A stretch of 35,323 nt of DNA from Chitinophagaceae bacterium (GTDB lineage: Bacteria > Bacteroidota > Bacteroidia > Chitinophagales > UBA10324), in the NCBI GenBank assembly GCA_947474435.1, contig CANJII010000033.1, positions 1-35,323 of the forward strand, read 5' to 3'. The number at the start of each line of letters is the position of its first letter. Position 1 is the stretch's first letter. The notes under the pieces are model-generated. The model searched no databases. It had not been told where the DNA came from and worked only from the letters and a program-made list of their open reading frames with translations. Of this stretch, positions 3,409 through 29,995 are shown piece after piece. The position numbers were made by a program, and so were the translations under genes.

Positions 3409-4431
3409 ATGGCATTGCACGGCAAAATTATTTTTCGCACCGATGGCGGTGAAAAAGTCGGAATGAATCATTTAATCCGATGCGCTGCGCTTGCTGAAAT
3501 GTTGCGCCAGCAGTATGAGTGTGTACTCGCTATTCGTGTTCCGAATCCTTCGGCGCTTCAATTGGTGGGCGGAGTTTTTCATTCTATTATTTCGCTTCCT
3601 GGTTCTGAAAATTATGAAGGCGATGAACTGATTTCATACTTGCATGCCGGTGATATTGTTGTGTTCGATGGCATTCAATTTCAAACAGAGTACCAGAAAA
3701 AAATTCGTGAGCATTGTAAACTTGTTTGTATTGATGATTTACATAACCATCATTTTGTGGCGGATGCAATTATCAATCATGCAGAAGGAATTTTACCAAA
3801 TGCATATTCCACTGATGAGCACACACGCTTTTATCTCGGAGCGCGCTATGCGATGATTCGTCAACCGTTTATTACGGCGGCAAAAGAAAATTCAGAACCA
3901 AGTATTGCCAACCGCGCATTGATTCACATTGGCGGAAATGATTTTCACAACACCACACAAAAAGTTTTATCGGCATTGGTGAAAACTGAAATGATAAATG
4001 AAATCGAAGTAGTGATTAGTAAAATGAATCCAAATATTTCGTTGCTCGAAGATTTTATTTATGCAAATAGCAAGACCGCTAAAATTATGTTGTGCAAAAA
4101 TTTGCCGGGCGATGAACTGTGCGATCTGATGAAAACCTGTCGCTACATGATTTGCGCGGCGAACAATGTGTTGTACGAAGCATGCGCTGTTGGAATGAAA
4201 ATTATTTCAGGATACACATCGCCAACACAAATGGAAATTTTGCACGGACTGGTAGCAAAAGGAGTAGTAAATAATTTCGGAAATTTTTTAACTGAAGACG
4301 AAAACAATCTGAAAGCGCGATTCGAATTGTTTATGAATGACGAAACCACTTCGCAACAATTATCAAATCAAAAATTATTGATTGATGGAAAATCGCCTGA
4401 GCGGTTGTTTGAAATATTTAACAAATTATAG
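3409..4431 (+). CDS. PseG-like UDP-sugar hydrolase / glycosyltransferase-fold protein
   Basis: The 340-residue product resembles PseG, which removes UDP from UDP-2,4-diacetamido-2,4,6-trideoxy-altrose during pseudaminic acid synthesis and has a GT-B (MurG-like) fold. Seen directly: an N-terminal RTDGGEKVGMNHLIRCAALAE block equivalent to the PseG GxGHxxRC loop, with the presumed catalytic His at residue 21, and a central ALIHIGGNDFHN block equivalent to the GGxDxxN motif. The C-terminal AANNVLYEACAVGMKII fits the nucleotide-binding half. No other pseudaminic-acid gene (pseB, C, F, H, I) is present nearby, so the true substrate may differ. The fold is fairly sure, the substrate is not. Confidence 0.68.
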   Translation: MALHGKIIFRTDGGEKVGMNHLIRCAALAEMLRQQYECVLAIRVPNPSALQLVGGVFHSIISLPGSENYEGDELISYLHAGDIVVFDGIQFQTEYQKKIREHCKLVCIDDLHNHHFVADAIINHAEGILPNAYSTDEHTRFYLGARYAMIRQPFITAAKENSEPSIANRALIHIGGNDFHNTTQKVLSALVKTEMINEIEVVISKMNPNISLLEDFIYANSKTAKIMLCKNLPGDELCDLMKTCRYMICAANNVLYEACAVGMKIISGYTSPTQMEILHGLVAKGVVNNFGNFLTEDENNLKARFELFMNDETTSQQLSNQKLLIDGKSPERLFEIFNKL

Positions 4432-8390: not shown

Positions 8391-8969
8391 GTGACTGCTG
8401 AAGAAATAATAAAAAAAGAAAACGAGCTGTTGTTTGAGCGGGAATTTTTCCCTCATGCCGATGCATTGTACAACTTTGCTTTTCATTTAACCTACAACGA
8501 AGATGATGCACACGATCTTGTCCAGGATACTTTTTTAAAATCGTATCGGTTTATAAATTCTTACGAGAAAGGAACGAATGCAAAGGCATGGCTGTTCAAA
8601 ATTCTCAAGAACAGTTTCATTAACGAGTACCGTAAAAAAGTCAGGGCTCCGCATGAAACTGATTACGAAGATTACATTGCTTACCAGGATAGTGACGAAG
8701 CCACCGGAATAGGAAGTCTGGATATGCGCTCCAATGTTTTTCAAAACATGATGGGCGATGAAATTACTGGTTCCATTAATTCGTTGCCGGCCGATTTCAG
8801 AACGGTGATTTTGTTGTGTGATGTGGAAGATTTTACCTATGAAGAAATTGCAAAAATTGTTGACATACCGGTTGGTACCGTTCGTTCGCGCCTGCATCGT
8901 TCACGCAATATGCTGAAAGAAAAATTACGAGACTACGCAAAAACAAAAGGCATAAAAGAAATCAGATAA
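8391..8969 (+). CDS. RNA polymerase sigma-70 family factor (ECF-like)
   Basis: The 192-residue product has sigma region 2 at about 22-90 (ALYNFAFHLTYNEDDAHDLV, then WLFKILKNSFINEYRKK) and region 4 at about 125-180 (FRTVILLCDVEDFTYEEIA, VPVGTVRSRLHRSR-like helix-turn-helix, here DIPVGTVRSRLHRSR). An acidic linker between them (TDYEDYIAYQDSDEATG) is typical of a SigE-like Bacteroidota group. The start is GTG: an in-frame TAA lies at 8385-8387, and no ATG occurs near the N-terminus. A putative anti-sigma gene follows after 5 bp, and meaB after that. Its regulon is unknown. Confidence 0.9.
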   Translation: MTAEEIIKKENELLFEREFFPHADALYNFAFHLTYNEDDAHDLVQDTFLKSYRFINSYEKGTNAKAWLFKILKNSFINEYRKKVRAPHETDYEDYIAYQDSDEATGIGSLDMRSNVFQNMMGDEITGSINSLPADFRTVILLCDVEDFTYEEIAKIVDIPVGTVRSRLHRSRNMLKEKLRDYAKTKGIKEIR

Positions 8970-8974
8970 ATAAA

Positions 8975-9238
8975 ATGGACGACAAACAGCGATTACTCGA
9001 TCGGCACAATTGCCAGCAGCTCATGCGCAAAGTCATGCTCTTGCTCGATGGAGAAATGAGTGAAGCGGAAGAAAAAGATTTTTTGGCTAATGTTTCCATT
9101 TGCAATCATTGCCTTGAATCTTATCACATCGAAAAAAATTTTAAAGATTATATCGTTAATAAAGTTGAGCGGAAAAAATTATCGGTTGATGTACTTATTT
9201 CTATTCGCGAAAAAATTAAAGGTCAACTCGACGCTTGA
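8975..9238 (+). CDS. Putative anti-sigma factor (zinc-finger-like, degenerate)
   Basis: The 87-residue product is encoded directly after the sigma factor and resembles small cytoplasmic anti-sigma proteins of Bacteroidota. It has HNCQQLMRKVMLLLDGEMSEAEE, then ICNHCLESYHIEK. The CxxC pair (Cys43, Cys46) and an upstream Cys13 match the ZAS zinc pattern, but the expected His four residues before the CxxC is Asn39. Zinc may be bound through His45 or His51 instead, or not at all. There is no membrane segment, so it would act as a soluble partner of the sigma factor. The role is inferred from family resemblance and position. Confidence 0.75.
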   Translation: MDDKQRLLDRHNCQQLMRKVMLLLDGEMSEAEEKDFLANVSICNHCLESYHIEKNFKDYIVNKVERKKLSVDVLISIREKIKGQLDA

Positions 9239-19649: not shown

Positions 19650-22274
19650 TTATTTTTCAGAATTGATTTGAAAATCATTCGGTTGCTTTTCATTTATATC
19701 ATCCAGCTTCTTTTGTATGTATTGAATATCGTTATCGAGCGTGCTATTTTCTGTGCGCTTTAATTCCAACTCATTTTCTATTTGTGATAAAACTCCGGAA
19801 GCCGACAGCTTCACCCACAAACTTTTTGAATCATTCAAGGCAATGGAAGAAAGTAAATCAACTCCCTTCAATCTTGTTTCGGAATTTGTATTTACAAGAA
19901 ATGTTTTCATTGCGGAGAGCAACGAAAACATTTCATAAAATCCTGCTGAGTTTAAATTTTGTTCGAACCAGTTGTAATCATCTGCATTTCCTTTCACTGC
20001 TAAAACATCAGCAAGCGAATACATTAAATCGCCTGACTTTTCATTTTTCAATGAAACAGCAAGTGTGTATGCTTTTCCGGGGAAATTTTCCTTCAAAATT
20101 GTAATTGTGGTTCCCAACACATCGTACGAACTATCTTTTGCGGTGATTTCAGTAATTGAATTAATTAAATCCGCATCATTAAGTGAACTCAATTTATTTA
20201 ATGCAGCCGACCGCACCTGCGGATTCGGATCTGATTTTATTATTGAAATTAAAATAGGTGTTACAGTTGAAATTGTTTTTTCATTATCAAGTGTAACCAG
20301 CTCAATTGCTGTTTTGCGGATGTACCAGAATTTATCATTCAATGCATTGATTAATGCTAACCGCTCTGATTCAAATAAATATTGTTCATTTGAAAATTCC
20401 TGAACAGCTTCATATCTGTCCATGAAAAGCGGGGCATAATTATATTGAAACAAGAATGACGAATCGTCTTTGTTATCTGTCTTCTCCCATAAAATACTTT
20501 TGGTTGCATCCACATTTATCAAGTCAGGTTTTGTGTATGCTGGAAATGAAAAAGTTTGTTTCGCCTTATTCATCACTACACGATACCGCTTTGTTTCTCC
20601 GCCTGAATAAACATCCACATCTATCGGCAAACGAAAAACCGGAGTGCTGGTGGTGGTGTCTTGTGTTTGTTCGATGGATACAAATTCAGCATTTGATTCA
20701 TCACTGTAAGTGTAATTGATATTTACAACCGGATGACCTGGCGATAAATAATATTCATTGAAGAACCAGTTCAAATCTTCACCCGTTACTTTTTCAAAAG
20801 CCATTCTGAGCGTGTGCACCTCTCCGGTTCCGAATTTATTTTCTGTCAGGTAAACATTCAATGATTTAAAGAAAGCATCCTCACCCACATAATTGCGTAA
20901 CATGTTCAACACACAACCACCTCGCTGGTAACTGTTGGCATCAAACAAATCTTCCTGACTTTCATAGTGGTACCGAATCAACGGAACAGGGCTGCCGGCA
21001 GTTGCTGTCAGATAAGTGTTTTTATCGTTGTTCACCTGAAGGTCGTGCGCGTCTTTTCCATTCTTGTATTCAGCCCACAATGCTTCTGCATAATCAGCAA
21101 ATGATTCGTTGAGCGAAATGTTCGACCACGATTCGCATGTAACCAAATCGCCAAACCAGTGATGAAATAATTCGTGACAAATAATATCATCGTTATTTCC
21201 ATCAATCATTTCGCGATGTGTTTGATTCAATGCATCGTAATGAACAACAGCGGTTGTGTTTTCCATTGCACCTGAAACAAAATCGCGAACCACTATCTGC
21301 GAATATTTTGGCCAGGCATAATCAACTCCCAACAGCTTACTGTAACATTCAATCATCTCCGGAGTTCTTCCGAAAATTTCTTTAGCATATTGTTCGTATT
21401 TCGGTTCCACATAATAATCTACCGGCATGTTGCGCCACTTGTCGTGCACAATTTTAAAATCACCAACAGCCATCATCACTAAGTAAGGTGCAATTGGTAA
21501 ATCCATTTTCCAGTGGTCGGTGCGTGTTCCGTTTTTATTATTTTTTGAATCGAGCATTAAACCATTCGAGAGTGTTACATACTGGGTGTCAACCGTCATG
21601 TAAATTTCAATCAGTGTTTTCAAGTTCGGCTTATCAATGGTTGGATACCACGCCGAGTTCGATTCTGTTTCGCCCTGCGTCCATATTTGTTTTGGTTTAT
21701 TCGGTTCTTCACCTTTCGGATTGATGAAGTACAAACCCTTTGAATCAGTTATGGCTGCGCTGCCTTCAGTTTTTCTTTCGTTGGGCTTTGCTTTGTACTC
21801 TATGTAAATTGTGTAGAGATCATTTCTTGTGTATGTCTTGTCTAAAAAAATATGAAGTTGTGATGAATCATAAACATACTGTAACAGTTTATTTCCGGAA
21901 GCAGAAACCATTTCCACTTTATAAATATCAAATCCTTTTGCATCGAGTGTTAAAGAATCAGTCGGATAAAAGTGTGGCTTGAAGGTGATAGTTGCTTTGC
22001 CAGGCATGTACTGATGTTCCCAATCGAAACTAACATCGAGCGAGGTACTGATAATATCATTGATGATGGTGTGTGATGGATGATATTCTCCTGTTGGAAG
22101 TTCTTCTGCTTCCTGTTCATTTTCATAATCGTATTCCGAATCATAAGATATTTCCGGAACATCTTCAGGATAGTAATCGTGTCCTCGAAAAATTCTGCAA
22201 CCGGAATTTAATGAGATGATGAGGAAAGAAAATAAAAGAGAGGAGAGAAAAAATTTGTTTGAAATTAATTTCAT
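19650..22274 (-). CDS. M1 family aminopeptidase (lipoprotein) with HEAT-like repeats
   Basis: The 874-residue product is an M1 metallopeptidase that removes N-terminal residues from peptides. It has a lipoprotein signal peptide (lipobox SGC, Cys26), so it sits in the cell envelope. The exopeptidase motif GAMEN is at 335-339; zinc is bound by HELFH (His367, His371, catalytic Glu368) and Glu390 in NESFADY. After the catalytic part, residues ~620-830 contain HEAT-like helical repeats (LALINALNDKFWYIRKTAIE; PQVRSAALNKLSSL), followed by a short C-terminal coiled coil. Gene order suggests one transcript with the carbonic-anhydrase-like gene. A -7-type box lies 20 bp upstream of the ATG. Confidence 0.93.
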   Translation of the reverse strand: MKLISNKFFLSSLLFSFLIISLNSGCRIFRGHDYYPEDVPEISYDSEYDYENEQEAEELPTGEYHPSHTIINDIISTSLDVSFDWEHQYMPGKATITFKPHFYPTDSLTLDAKGFDIYKVEMVSASGNKLLQYVYDSSQLHIFLDKTYTRNDLYTIYIEYKAKPNERKTEGSAAITDSKGLYFINPKGEEPNKPKQIWTQGETESNSAWYPTIDKPNLKTLIEIYMTVDTQYVTLSNGLMLDSKNNKNGTRTDHWKMDLPIAPYLVMMAVGDFKIVHDKWRNMPVDYYVEPKYEQYAKEIFGRTPEMIECYSKLLGVDYAWPKYSQIVVRDFVSGAMENTTAVVHYDALNQTHREMIDGNNDDIICHELFHHWFGDLVTCESWSNISLNESFADYAEALWAEYKNGKDAHDLQVNNDKNTYLTATAGSPVPLIRYHYESQEDLFDANSYQRGGCVLNMLRNYVGEDAFFKSLNVYLTENKFGTGEVHTLRMAFEKVTGEDLNWFFNEYYLSPGHPVVNINYTYSDESNAEFVSIEQTQDTTTSTPVFRLPIDVDVYSGGETKRYRVVMNKAKQTFSFPAYTKPDLINVDATKSILWEKTDNKDDSSFLFQYNYAPLFMDRYEAVQEFSNEQYLFESERLALINALNDKFWYIRKTAIELVTLDNEKTISTVTPILISIIKSDPNPQVRSAALNKLSSLNDADLINSITEITAKDSSYDVLGTTITILKENFPGKAYTLAVSLKNEKSGDLMYSLADVLAVKGNADDYNWFEQNLNSAGFYEMFSLLSAMKTFLVNTNSETRLKGVDLLSSIALNDSKSLWVKLSASGVLSQIENELELKRTENSTLDNDIQYIQKKLDDINEKQPNDFQINSEK

Positions 22275-22294
22275 GTTGAGTTTGTGTTCGGAAA

Positions 22295-22302
22295 CAAACC
22301 TA
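22295..22302 (-). promoter_or_regulatory. Candidate -7 box for the aminopeptidase gene
   Basis: On the minus strand TAGGTTTG matches the Bacteroidota -7 consensus TAnnTTTG exactly, 20 bp before the ATG at 22274. No good -33 box is visible at the usual distance. The palindrome at 22325-22359 lies just upstream of where the -33 region would be. Confidence 0.45.
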
Positions 22303-22324
22303 ATGGAATTATCTTTAACCCGAT

Positions 22325-22359
22325 AAGAACGACGCGGTTTTAAAAACCGCGTCGTTCTT
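22325..22359. repeat. Long perfect palindrome, copy A of a dispersed element
   Basis: Arms of 17 bases (22325-22341 and 22343-22359) flank a single central base. The core is GACGCGG (22331-22337) to CCGCGTC (22347-22353). It lies in the 99-bp gap between the divergent aminopeptidase and biotin-carrier genes, 15 bp before the latter's ATG. A copy of the same element lies inside mnmG at 29242-29274. GC-rich ends in AT-rich DNA and the second copy argue that it is a mobile or dispersed repeat rather than a local operator. Confidence 0.85.
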
Positions 22360-22373
22360 TACAAAACAATTTT

Positions 22374-22877
22374 ATGATGTACAAAGTCACAAGCAAGAAG
22401 GGAGAAGAGTTTGAAATAAAATTTGATAAAGATGGATTTTCGGTAAACGGAAAACCGGGTGAGTGGGATATTCAGAAAATCAAGAACAACCTGTATCATA
22501 TTTTGTTTGAGGGAAAAAGTTTTGAGGCAGAACTGCTGAAGGTGGATGCGGAAAACAAAACCGTTCACCTGAAAATAAATAACAAACCGATTGAGCTGAA
22601 AGTAGAAGACGAATACGACCAACTGTTACAGAAGCTCGGCATGGATAAAGCGCTCACGAAAAAAGTAAACGAACTGAAAGCGCCAATGCCCGGATTGGTT
22701 TTAAGAATATTAGCCGAAGAAGGACAAACCATAAAACAAGGCGACTCACTCCTCGTGCTCGAAGCCATGAAAATGGAAAATGTATTAAAGAGTATGGGCG
22801 ACGGAATTATAAAACAACTGAAAGTAAAAGCCGGAGATAAAGTGGAGAAGAACCAATTGCTGATTGTGATGGAGTAA
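22374..22877 (+). CDS. Biotin carboxyl carrier protein (biotin/lipoyl domain)
   Basis: The 167-residue product ends in a biotinyl domain with LEAMKMENVLKS, where Lys133 takes biotin; APMPGLVLRILAEEGQTIKQGD is the matching first half of the fold. The N-terminal ~95 residues are a separate domain seen in stand-alone carriers of acyl-CoA carboxylases. It would carry CO2 for acetyl-CoA or propionyl-CoA carboxylase in the cytoplasm. In Bacteroidota such carriers usually lie next to carboxylase genes, but none is here. Two ATG codons in a row (22374 and 22377) could start it. Its stop codon directly abuts that of the convergent serine hydrolase gene. Confidence 0.9.
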   Translation: MMYKVTSKKGEEFEIKFDKDGFSVNGKPGEWDIQKIKNNLYHILFEGKSFEAELLKVDAENKTVHLKINNKPIELKVEDEYDQLLQKLGMDKALTKKVNELKAPMPGLVLRILAEEGQTIKQGDSLLVLEAMKMENVLKSMGDGIIKQLKVKAGDKVEKNQLLIVME

Positions 22878-28072: not shown

Positions 28073-29995
28073 TTACCTGCCGAGATAAACCATCAATACA
28101 GAAACATCACTCGGATTTACTCCACTGATTCTGCTTGCTTGTCCGAGTGTGCGCGGTTTAAATTTTTTCAGCTTCTCTCTGGCTTCGAGTGAAAGAGAAT
28201 TGATAACCGAGAAATCAAAATTTTCGGGCACCGGAACATATTCGAGCCGATTCATTTTGTCCACGATTTCCTTTTCCTTCTCAATATAACCTTCGTACTT
28301 CATCAGAATTTCTGCCTGCTCAATGCTGTCTTCCATTTTTCCGGAGAGAATTTCTTTCACTGATGAAATTTTTTCGCGCAGGTCTTTCATTTCAATCTGT
28401 GGTCGCGAAAGCAACTGTAACAGTTTGGTCTTCTGTTTTATTTCGCTTGAATCCTGTTCGGTGAGAATGGAATTTATTTCATCGGGTGTAACACTTTCCT
28501 TTCTGAAGAAATCCATAATCTGTTTGGCTTCTTCTATCTTTTTATTCACCAATTCTAATCTATCATCACCGACCAATCCGATTTTATGAGCAAGTGGTGT
28601 CAAACGGATGTCAGCATTATCCTGACGCAACAAAATTCTGTACTCGGCGCGAGAGGTGAACATGCGATAAGGTTCGTTGGTACCCTTCGTAATTAAATCG
28701 TCAATCAACACACCGATGTATGCTTCATCGCGAGTGAGAATAAATTCGTGTTGGTCATTTATTTTCTGATGTGCATTTATTCCAGCCATTATTCCCTGGC
28801 ATGCCGCTTCTTCATAGCCGGTGGTTCCGTTGATTTGTCCAGCGTGAAAAAGATTTTTTACTGCGCGTGTTTCAAGTGTGGTGTGCAATTGATGCGGAGG
28901 AAAAAAATCATATTCAATGGCGTAACCCGGACGAAACATCCGCACATTTTCCAAGCCTGGAATTAATTTCAATGCTTTGTACTGTACCTCTTCGGGCAAC
29001 GATGTGCTGAAACCATTTACATAAATTTCAATGGTGTCCCAACCTTCGGGTTCAATAAATAATTGATGGCGCGTTTTATCAGCGAAGCGATTTATTTTAT
29101 CTTCAATACTCGGACAATATCTCGGACCTAAACCCTGAATGCGACCGGCGAACATCGGACTTTGTTCGAACCCGGTTTTCAAAACATCATGCACCTCCTG
29201 ATTGGTGTAGGTGATAAAGCAACTCTTTTGTTGCCTTGCCGAGACCGACGCGGTTTTTAAAACCGCGTCGGTCTTTTCCGCGTCAGTCTTTTCGAATGGA
29301 GAGGTTCCGGGTTTGTAAGAAAATTTTCCGGGATTCTCATCGCCCTTCTGTTCTTCCATTAAACTATAATTCAAACTTCTTCCATCAATGCGCGGAGGAG
29401 TTCCAGTTTTCATTCTTCCTGATTCCAGTCCGAGAGAAATTAATTGTTCGGTAATTCCGGTTGACGATTTTTCTGCCATGCGCCCGCCACCAAATTGTTT
29501 TTCTCCAATGTGAATGATGCCGTTCAGAAATGTTCCATTAGTAAGCACAACTGCTTTCGAACGAATTTCCATTCCCATTCCGGTGCGAATGCCGACTACA
29601 GCTCCGTCTTTAATTAATAATCCGCTCACCATATCCTGCCAGAAATCTATGTTTGGAGTTTGCTCCAGCATGTCTCTCCACTCTTTCGCAAATAATAACC
29701 GGTCGCTTTGCGCGCGCGGACTCCACATCGCCGGACCCTTCGAACGATTCAACATTCTGAATTGAATCATTGTTTTGTCGGTTACCATTCCGCTGTAACC
29801 GCCAAGTGCATCTATCTCGCGAACAATTTGTCCCTTCGCCACACCGCCCATTGCAGGATTGCAACTCATCTGTGCAATGGTTTGCATGTTCATGGTTACG
29901 AGCATGACTTTGGAGCCAAGGTTAGCCGCTGCTGCTGCTGCCTCGCATCCTGCATGACCGGCGCCCACTACAATGATGTCGTATTCAGGAAACAA
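28073..29995 (-). CDS. mnmG: tRNA uridine-5-carboxymethylaminomethyl modification enzyme MnmG (GidA)
   Basis: MnmG works with MnmE to modify uridine 34 of certain tRNAs, using FAD. The 640-residue product has the Rossmann start VVGAGHAGCEAA (10-20), GGYSGMVTDKTMIQFRMLN, the NGTFLNGIIHIGEKQFGGGR block, RIQGLGPRYCPSIEDKI, and the C-terminal SRISGVNPSDVSVLMVYLG. It is ~20 residues longer than usual because of an insertion near residues 235-255 that coincides with a palindromic repeat (29242-29292). The start is TTG at 29995, fitting the family's FPEYDIIVVG; an in-frame TAA lies six bases upstream. Confidence 0.95.
   Translation of the reverse strand: MFPEYDIIVVGAGHAGCEAAAAAANLGSKVMLVTMNMQTIAQMSCNPAMGGVAKGQIVREIDALGGYSGMVTDKTMIQFRMLNRSKGPAMWSPRAQSDRLLFAKEWRDMLEQTPNIDFWQDMVSGLLIKDGAVVGIRTGMGMEIRSKAVVLTNGTFLNGIIHIGEKQFGGGRMAEKSSTGITEQLISLGLESGRMKTGTPPRIDGRSLNYSLMEEQKGDENPGKFSYKPGTSPFEKTDAEKTDAVLKTASVSARQQKSCFITYTNQEVHDVLKTGFEQSPMFAGRIQGLGPRYCPSIEDKINRFADKTRHQLFIEPEGWDTIEIYVNGFSTSLPEEVQYKALKLIPGLENVRMFRPGYAIEYDFFPPHQLHTTLETRAVKNLFHAGQINGTTGYEEAACQGIMAGINAHQKINDQHEFILTRDEAYIGVLIDDLITKGTNEPYRMFTSRAEYRILLRQDNADIRLTPLAHKIGLVGDDRLELVNKKIEEAKQIMDFFRKESVTPDEINSILTEQDSSEIKQKTKLLQLLSRPQIEMKDLREKISSVKEILSGKMEDSIEQAEILMKYEGYIEKEKEIVDKMNRLEYVPVPENFDFSVINSLSLEAREKLKKFKPRTLGQASRISGVNPSDVSVLMVYLGR
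29242..29292. repeat. Palindromic element inside mnmG, copy B, with tandem arm copy
   Basis: Two 16-base arms (29242-29257, 29259-29274) flank one base. The 23-bp core at 29247-29269 equals the reverse complement of 22331-22353. A 15-bp direct repeat follows: 29263-29277 and 29278-29292 differ at one base. On the mnmG strand it stays in frame and encodes EKTDAEKTDAVLKTASVSA, between KFSYKPGTSPF and RQQKSCFITYT. Typical MnmG proteins join these two parts much more closely. Confidence 0.85.

Follow-up and report, generated by a model that had tools for sequence, protein, structure and literature searches.

Among the systems closest to the locus described here, GTAG REPs are moved by RAYT-type Y1 tyrosine transposases without duplication of the target, and SDR5 of cyanobacteria is a very small mobile repeat for which we know of no transposase. 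SDR5 inserts precisely within the HIP1 octamer, according to the accessible part of PMC4390886. As far as the accessible text of PMC3733652 goes, GTAG REPs are short dispersed hairpins, some of them intragenic, and CGTC REPs are small dispersed palindromes that occur in several phyla, including Bacteroidetes, with no dedicated transposase known; some CGTC REPs are intragenic, with DNA polymerase I among the REP-bearing proteins, and some are nested in other palindromes. The same portion of that source gives CGTC REPs an unpaired CGTC tag, an 8–9 bp stem, a 4–5 base loop, and a short unpaired tail, tabulates GTAG and CGTC REP stems at 5–13 bp (CGTC, 8–9 bp), and treats the small RPE-4 and RPE-6 as equivalent to CGTC REPs. 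RPEs (Ogata 2000, 2002) are palindromes of ~150 bp that lie in frame in unrelated Rickettsia genes and are translated with a conserved peptide, as summarized in the accessible part of PMC10969869.

The window—the whole 35,323-nt stretch of DNA that was analyzed, from the genome designated G000—contains a 33-bp element that resembles each of these systems in part. Like CGTC REPs, it is a small palindrome dispersed in several phyla with no dedicated transposase known, with some copies intragenic, some nested, and DNA polymerase I among its hosts; unlike CGTC REPs as that partial source describes them, it is untagged, with a 15-bp stem and a 3-base center. It shares with GTAG REPs the short dispersed hairpins and the intragenic copies but shows no GTAG tag, and no flanked RAYT gene was found: Its flanks are near-random, with no unpaired GTAG or CGTC tetranucleotide at the ends; its 15-bp arms and 3-base center differ from a 5–13 bp stem with a loop; and a RAYT gene flanked by the repeat was not found among 30 inspected Y1 loci (of 42 matches). 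In-frame insertion with a conserved peptide, here TDAVxKTASV in five genes of the genus, is the habit of RPEs, which are ~150 bp long and were described in Rickettsia, whereas the present element has 33 bp and spans phyla. SDR5 is likewise mobile and very small, with no known transposase, but no target motif was seen for the present element. The terminal inverted repeats of MITEs have a counterpart, the whole element being one such repeat (longer forms in one genome, G061, bear an interior), and target-site duplication of at least 2 bp was not found in 92 copies. We therefore file the element among short mobile palindromes, as neither REP nor RPE: Tag, stem length, and loop size set it apart from REPs, and its in-frame habit is common with RPEs. 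The literature searched, mostly available below full-text level and including the accessible part of PMC2884548, yielded no earlier description of the 33-bp element.

The Window Site and Copies in the Same Genome

Positions 22,325–22,359 (AAGAACGACGCGGTTTTAAAAACCGCGTCGTTCTT) form a perfect palindrome with 17-base arms and a 1-base center, as the initial annotation had stated. Such palindromes are expected by chance at ~6e-6 per 35,323-nt window, and the single-stranded DNA fold reaches −19.3 kcal/mol (z = −7.2), with none of 200 shuffles as good. The repeated unit is the 33 bp at 22,326–22,358, organized as 15-3-15; the outermost A/T pair, which extends this copy to 35 bp, belongs to the flank. 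The palindrome lies in a gap of 99 bp (22,275–22,373), correctly described beforehand as shared by an aminopeptidase and a biotin carrier: an M1 family aminopeptidase gene (Peptidase_M1; 19,650–22,274, minus strand) stands on one side, and a biotin carrier protein gene (Biotin_lipoyl; 22,374–22,877, plus strand), whose start codon is 15 bp past the element, on the other.

G000 (3.5 Mb, 98 contigs) holds eight near-intact copies, with the consensus AGACCGACGCGGTTT-NNN-AAACCGCGTCGGTCT, and a lone half element on contig C86. Two pattern searches agree on the eight; one allows up to 3 mismatches, and the other adds an unrelated match on C13. Arm pairing is complete (15/15) in six of the eight, the C34 copy keeping 13 pairs and the C68 copy 14, and the central triplet is TAA in six. 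Paired double changes occur in three copies: C–G to A–T in C33a, A–T to T–A in C68, and A–T to C–G in C71. At arm position 4, the intergenic copy has A–T where the consensus and the second copy in the window, within mnmG, have C–G, so that the paired arm change reported from the initial reading holds. Perfect palindromes with arms of at least 12 number 26 in 842 kb of G000; six of them are 33 bp long, and five of those six belong to the present family.

At the window site, the gap is short and lacks the element in congeners G002, G003, G004, and G005, while G001 has a degenerate palindrome. It is therefore very unlikely that the palindrome is a regulatory operator or an mRNA hairpin of the biotin carrier/aminopeptidase pair. 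Its position in a shared promoter gap 15 bp ahead of a start codon, and the degenerate palindrome at the same place in G001, are what such a function would leave, but the site is empty in four of five congeners and other copies occupy coding regions, convergent gaps, and co-directional gaps. A conserved operator fixed at this site in all relatives, which the initial annotation had named as the outcome that would overturn its view, is not what the genus shows, with four gaps empty and the fifth degenerate. Any leader role for the biotin carrier gene would go unshared by four of the five congeners. An intrinsic, possibly bidirectional, transcription terminator is scarcely credible: The hairpin is strong, at least four T's abut it on one strand in four of the eight G000 copies (C6, C29, C33b, and C68), in an A+T-rich genome, and similarly sized A/T-flanked palindromes in G000 look like terminators; however, the remaining four copies have no such T run, and the element sits between divergent genes at the window site and in frame within genes elsewhere instead of at gene ends. 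Rfam covariance models gave 0 matches to the element in 7 sources. The window copy is best explained as an insertion that the region upstream of the biotin carrier gene tolerates, not as a dedicated regulator, and the history at this site and at other loci is more than one single clean insertion.

Arm Pairing, Ends, and Flanks

The covariation check proposed with the initial annotation was run on 107 copies from 13 genomes (108 scanned matches minus one with 7 mismatches), a set that includes just one G067 copy and leaves most of the 43 G060 copies outside. It contains 24 paired Watson–Crick double arm changes, three of the eight G000 copies having them, whereas 2,000 within-column shuffles average 2.1 and never exceed 7, none of them reaching 24; the shuffles take copies as independent, though they are related, and the copies were collected by patterns tolerating few mismatches. 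A further 78 arm changes are one-sided or non-pairing; the genus accounts for 8 paired and 33 unpaired changes, and G000 for 3 of each. With 24 paired beside 78 unpaired changes, the arms are held alike, imperfectly. The proposal that the palindrome itself is maintained thus stands insofar as paired changes hold pairing, but copies do decay, with those 78 unpaired changes, pairs broken in two of eight G000 copies, and a degenerate site in G001. Paired changes need not mean function; hairpin-templated correction in replication would give them too.

In 92 copies, the base flanking the element is A at 180 of 184 positions, making the outermost pair A/T, and the bases past this pair are near-random; the element therefore ends sharply at 33 bp. 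The target-site duplication that the initial annotation had suggested looking for did not appear: Flanking direct repeats of at least 2 bp show no excess over shuffles in these 92 copies, from which 15 G060 copies were left out. A weak excess of 1-bp direct repeats (33 vs. 22.4 of 92) was met in 1 of 500 shuffles. An apparent 2-bp duplication signal vanished once the G060 copies, which have common flanks, were removed.

Central triplets cluster in some genomes (CGA in 14 of 21 copies in G063, CAG in 9 of 15 in G060) whereas others, G061 and G062 among them, show a mixture; the clusters, including TAA in G000, are as local amplification would give. Flank pairing, as expected from insertion into loops of other hairpins, was no better than shuffled in G000, G002, and G004. 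Several G060 and G067 copies sit within longer repeats. At G067 loci L296 and L303 (half of it in L304), the palindrome occupies the loop of a longer AAATCCCCC...GGGGGATTT repeat, and G060 copies are found inside another conserved repeat.

Copies Inside Genes and Their Absence in Congeners

The second copy in the window (29,242–29,274) lies within mnmG (GIDA family, 640 aa; 28,073–29,995, minus strand), where it is read in frame on the minus strand as ...EKTDAVLKTASVS.... Beside it, at 29,279–29,293 on the same strand, stands a diverged tandem 15-bp unit (GAAAAGACTGACGCG, coding strand), one base off the unit running into the element, so that the peptide EKTDA is repeated. Of the four genomes compared, only G000 is filled, and its gene is 60 bp longer at the element than those of G001, G003, and G004 (the G002 match ended at a contig edge, and G005 gave no mnmG match). 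Relative to the solved Chlorobium GidA structure 3cp8, MnmG has 19 additional residues exactly at the element.

Five genes of the genus carry an internal copy—ispG and mnmG in G000, polA in G002, and yfhO and a lipoyl acyltransferase gene in G004—with coding sequence conserved on both sides, as judged by orthologue alignments or Pfam domains, and all five read the element in the identical frame, TDAVxKTASV. A sixth genus copy, in the signal-peptide region of a G000 HlyD-type gene, is in a different frame. With most centers, the TDAVxKTASV frame has no stop codon whichever way the element is oriented. This property, together with a length of 11 codons, which would make a 33-bp palindrome tolerable in genes, would account for the survival of insertions in protein loops and linkers.

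Occupancy differs among the six genomes of the genus. A tree of the congeners, which places G004 unreliably, probably owing to a wrong longest frame for one gene, does not enter the comparison. The site upstream of ribBA is filled in three of six (G000, G002, and G005) and empty in G001, G003, and G004; at locus L128, upstream of ribBA in G005, a further palindrome, CCCTCTCCCAAGGAGAGGG, is inserted beside the 33-bp element. In ispG, G000 carries the 33-bp element, G002, G004, and G005 carry instead a different palindrome (GTTGTTGGT....ACCAACAAC) with a paired G–C/C–G swap in G002, and neither palindrome is present in G001 or G003. Inspection by eye shows palindrome sequence in the polA linker of all six: the intact element in G002, degenerate forms in G001, G003, and G005, and, in G000 (L359) and G004 (L362), a third palindrome, CAGGGTGACC...CACCCTG, which reads in frame as QQGDRRNEDTLRSG. 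In net length, the difference is 60 bp for mnmG and the HlyD gene and <33 bp for the E2 acyltransferase and YfhO genes, with loops rewritten; comparison of these four yielded no exact +33-bp pair of empty and filled sites.

Long frames that cross a copy number 21, and 20 were scanned against Pfam; nine of the 20 gave no match there, so they may not be genes. Outside the genus, in other phyla, a copy falls within the Pfam match of an ABC transporter domain (G061, L147) and of a DUF2298 membrane protein (G062, L191). In L150, L151, L174, and L186 the copy stands ahead of any domain and may lie upstream of the real start codon. The intragenic count leaves out copies located just within the beginning of a stop-to-stop frame, such as C68, L200, L214, and L215, since translation there probably starts farther downstream.

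Distribution Across Phyla

Among 60 relatives, including G000, five match, all within the genus (5 of 6), and none of the 54 beyond it does. A Bacteroidota phylum sample gave 1 match in 296, which is G000 itself (the congeners lie outside the sample), and a Chloroflexota sample gave 5 in 400, counting G061, on which the sample was centered. An exact-core scan of a species-level genome collection returned 54 stretches, most of them from two Chitinophagaceae records, several Chloroflexi, and one genome each of Syntrophobacteraceae and of a deltaproteobacterium; groundwater or sediment is named in some titles. Stretches from Paraburkholderia and Inquilinus lack the outer arms AGACC and may reflect chance or an artefact, and the one match in Myxococcaceae G070, at up to 3 mismatches, may be a degenerate copy. 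Copy numbers reach 43 in G060, 22 in G063, 19 in G061, and 3 in G064. All 33 letters, center included, are identical between the C29 copy of G000 and locus L141 of Anaerolineales G061. This patchy occurrence and sequence identity are, on comparison of the copies, best explained by horizontal transfer.

Phage and plasmid collections gave no match to the element. In IMG/VR, the main core, a second variant, and the longer forms each gave 0 matches, and one contig carries a GACTCGG variant: IMGVR_UViG_3300045970_000708 has an intact GACTCGG copy (L389:996–1028) at the boundary of two reading frames. The copy on this viral contig is near a Laminin_G_3 protein gene.

Several genomes hold altered forms. 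G067 has mainly a compensated variant, AGACCGACTCGG...CCGAGTCGGTCT. In G061, some forms keep the ends but are longer, their interior reaching 38 bases, and two have swapped arms. The arm-swapped palindromes, at L279:2026 and L280:874, read AGACCGCGTCGGTCT-NNN-AGACCGACGCGGTCT, with length unchanged. In G063, four tandem 23-bp direct repeats, each half an element plus 8 bp of flank, run into an intact copy (L082:4495–4600). The longer and swapped forms of G061 and the tandem halves of G063 suggest hairpin-related replication errors after insertion.

Origin and Mobility

We consider it likely that the window site holds one of the copies of a mobile palindrome that is non-autonomous and has a fixed length of 33 bp, with 15-bp arms and a 3-base center; on the best reading, it is a REP/RPE-like, horizontally transferred element 11 codons long. 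The observations that bear on mobility are the dispersed copies, their sharp ends, presence and absence among congeners, paired changes, in-frame copies, and scattered occurrence in genomes of other phyla. Together these comparisons suggest that the element is mobile, and movement as such we infer from them. In transfer, a trans-acting enzyme could recognize the paired foot (AGACC/GGTCT) of a single-stranded hairpin intermediate, with insertion that would not duplicate target bases; 33 bp gained without duplication would add 11 codons. Such an enzyme may travel on phages or other mobile elements. A Y1_Tnp scan of 14 genomes and a half-site search of 4 genomes identified no mobilizing gene, and the half-site search, with 36 stretches, found no widely spaced pair of ends around a gene in assemblies that are fragmented and with genes unannotated.

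A Y1 transposase of the RAYT type, acting on the element as on GTAG REPs, is an unlikely mover. Of 14 genomes that are carriers or congeners, 11 have Y1_Tnp, which is absent from G001, a genome with no near-intact copy; two Y1 loci of G061 have longer palindrome forms ~0.75 and 1.0 kb off, and a sub-threshold Y1 match in G002 lies between two copies 8.6 kb apart on contig C82. However, PF01797 has no match in G063 and G064, with their 22 and 3 copies, and the element tightly brackets none of the 30 inspected loci (of 42 matches); RAYT mobilization is on these two grounds not established. A half site at 0–1 mismatches is present in only two of the 30, both in G061, and the element has no GTAG or CGTC tag, with near-random flanks on both sides. 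Formation of the palindromes in place, by replication template switching and hairpin-templated correction without transposition, is quite improbable, although it would fit the tandem half units beside copies in mnmG and at L082, the arm-swapped forms of G061, and the small net length changes of the YfhO and E2 copies: A shared 33-letter sequence, sharply bounded at unrelated sites and in several phyla, calls for a common donor. On contig C82 of G002, the Y1_Tnp match (8800–9045) is below the family cut-off, and the contig's copies are at 4327 and 12926.

If the reading as a mobile palindrome is right, 33 bp of DNA would have moved between Bacteroidota, Chloroflexota, and deltaproteobacterial lineages and would be translated inside MnmG, IspG, DNA polymerase I, and an acyltransferase linker. 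Sister species with intact, degenerate, and empty sites, together with in-frame natural tags, would make this a tractable case for the spread of untagged palindromes; how they spread without a known transposase is a question that also stands for CGTC REPs. For annotation, such copies call for caution, as they make variable linker peptides.

Other Palindromes

A wider class is a tentative and somewhat doubtful extension: perfect 33-bp hairpins of 15-3-15 form in which size and form would be conserved, not sequence, with unrelated arms, coding-compatible, inserted without duplication, passed between phyla, and handled by hairpin-processing machinery as yet unrecognized. Among 55 non-family perfect palindromes at the fetched loci (counted after dropping 3 A+T-rich ones), 33 bp was the commonest length, with 11 in this biased sample; 10 of the 11 have arms of 15–16, and four are center variants of one sequence. 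The 842 kb of G000 added only one more 33-bp palindrome (14-5-14) and one of 37 bp with a 15-3-15 core. Because five of the six 33-bp palindromes of G000 are the element family itself, the wider class rests mainly on the congeners and Chloroflexota. Other 33-bp 15-3-15 palindromes of the same genus lie at L042:662; L088:673 and 1432; L204:676, 731, and 1959; and L332:14915. Their sequences are AACTTTTCCAAAGTT-NNN-AACTTTGGAAAAGTT and GGACA(A/T)ATTTGCAAT-NNN-....

A second family consists of a 24-bp palindrome, GTTGTTGGTG-AAAA-CACCAACAAC, in an open frame and with a paired arm swap in G002. Its copies are at L118, L119, and L122 (ispG of G005, G004, and G002, respectively), L344:4602, and L329:14013. 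The encoded peptide is VVGENTNN in ispG and a PyrD-like gene and VVGAFTNN in a possible signal-peptide region.
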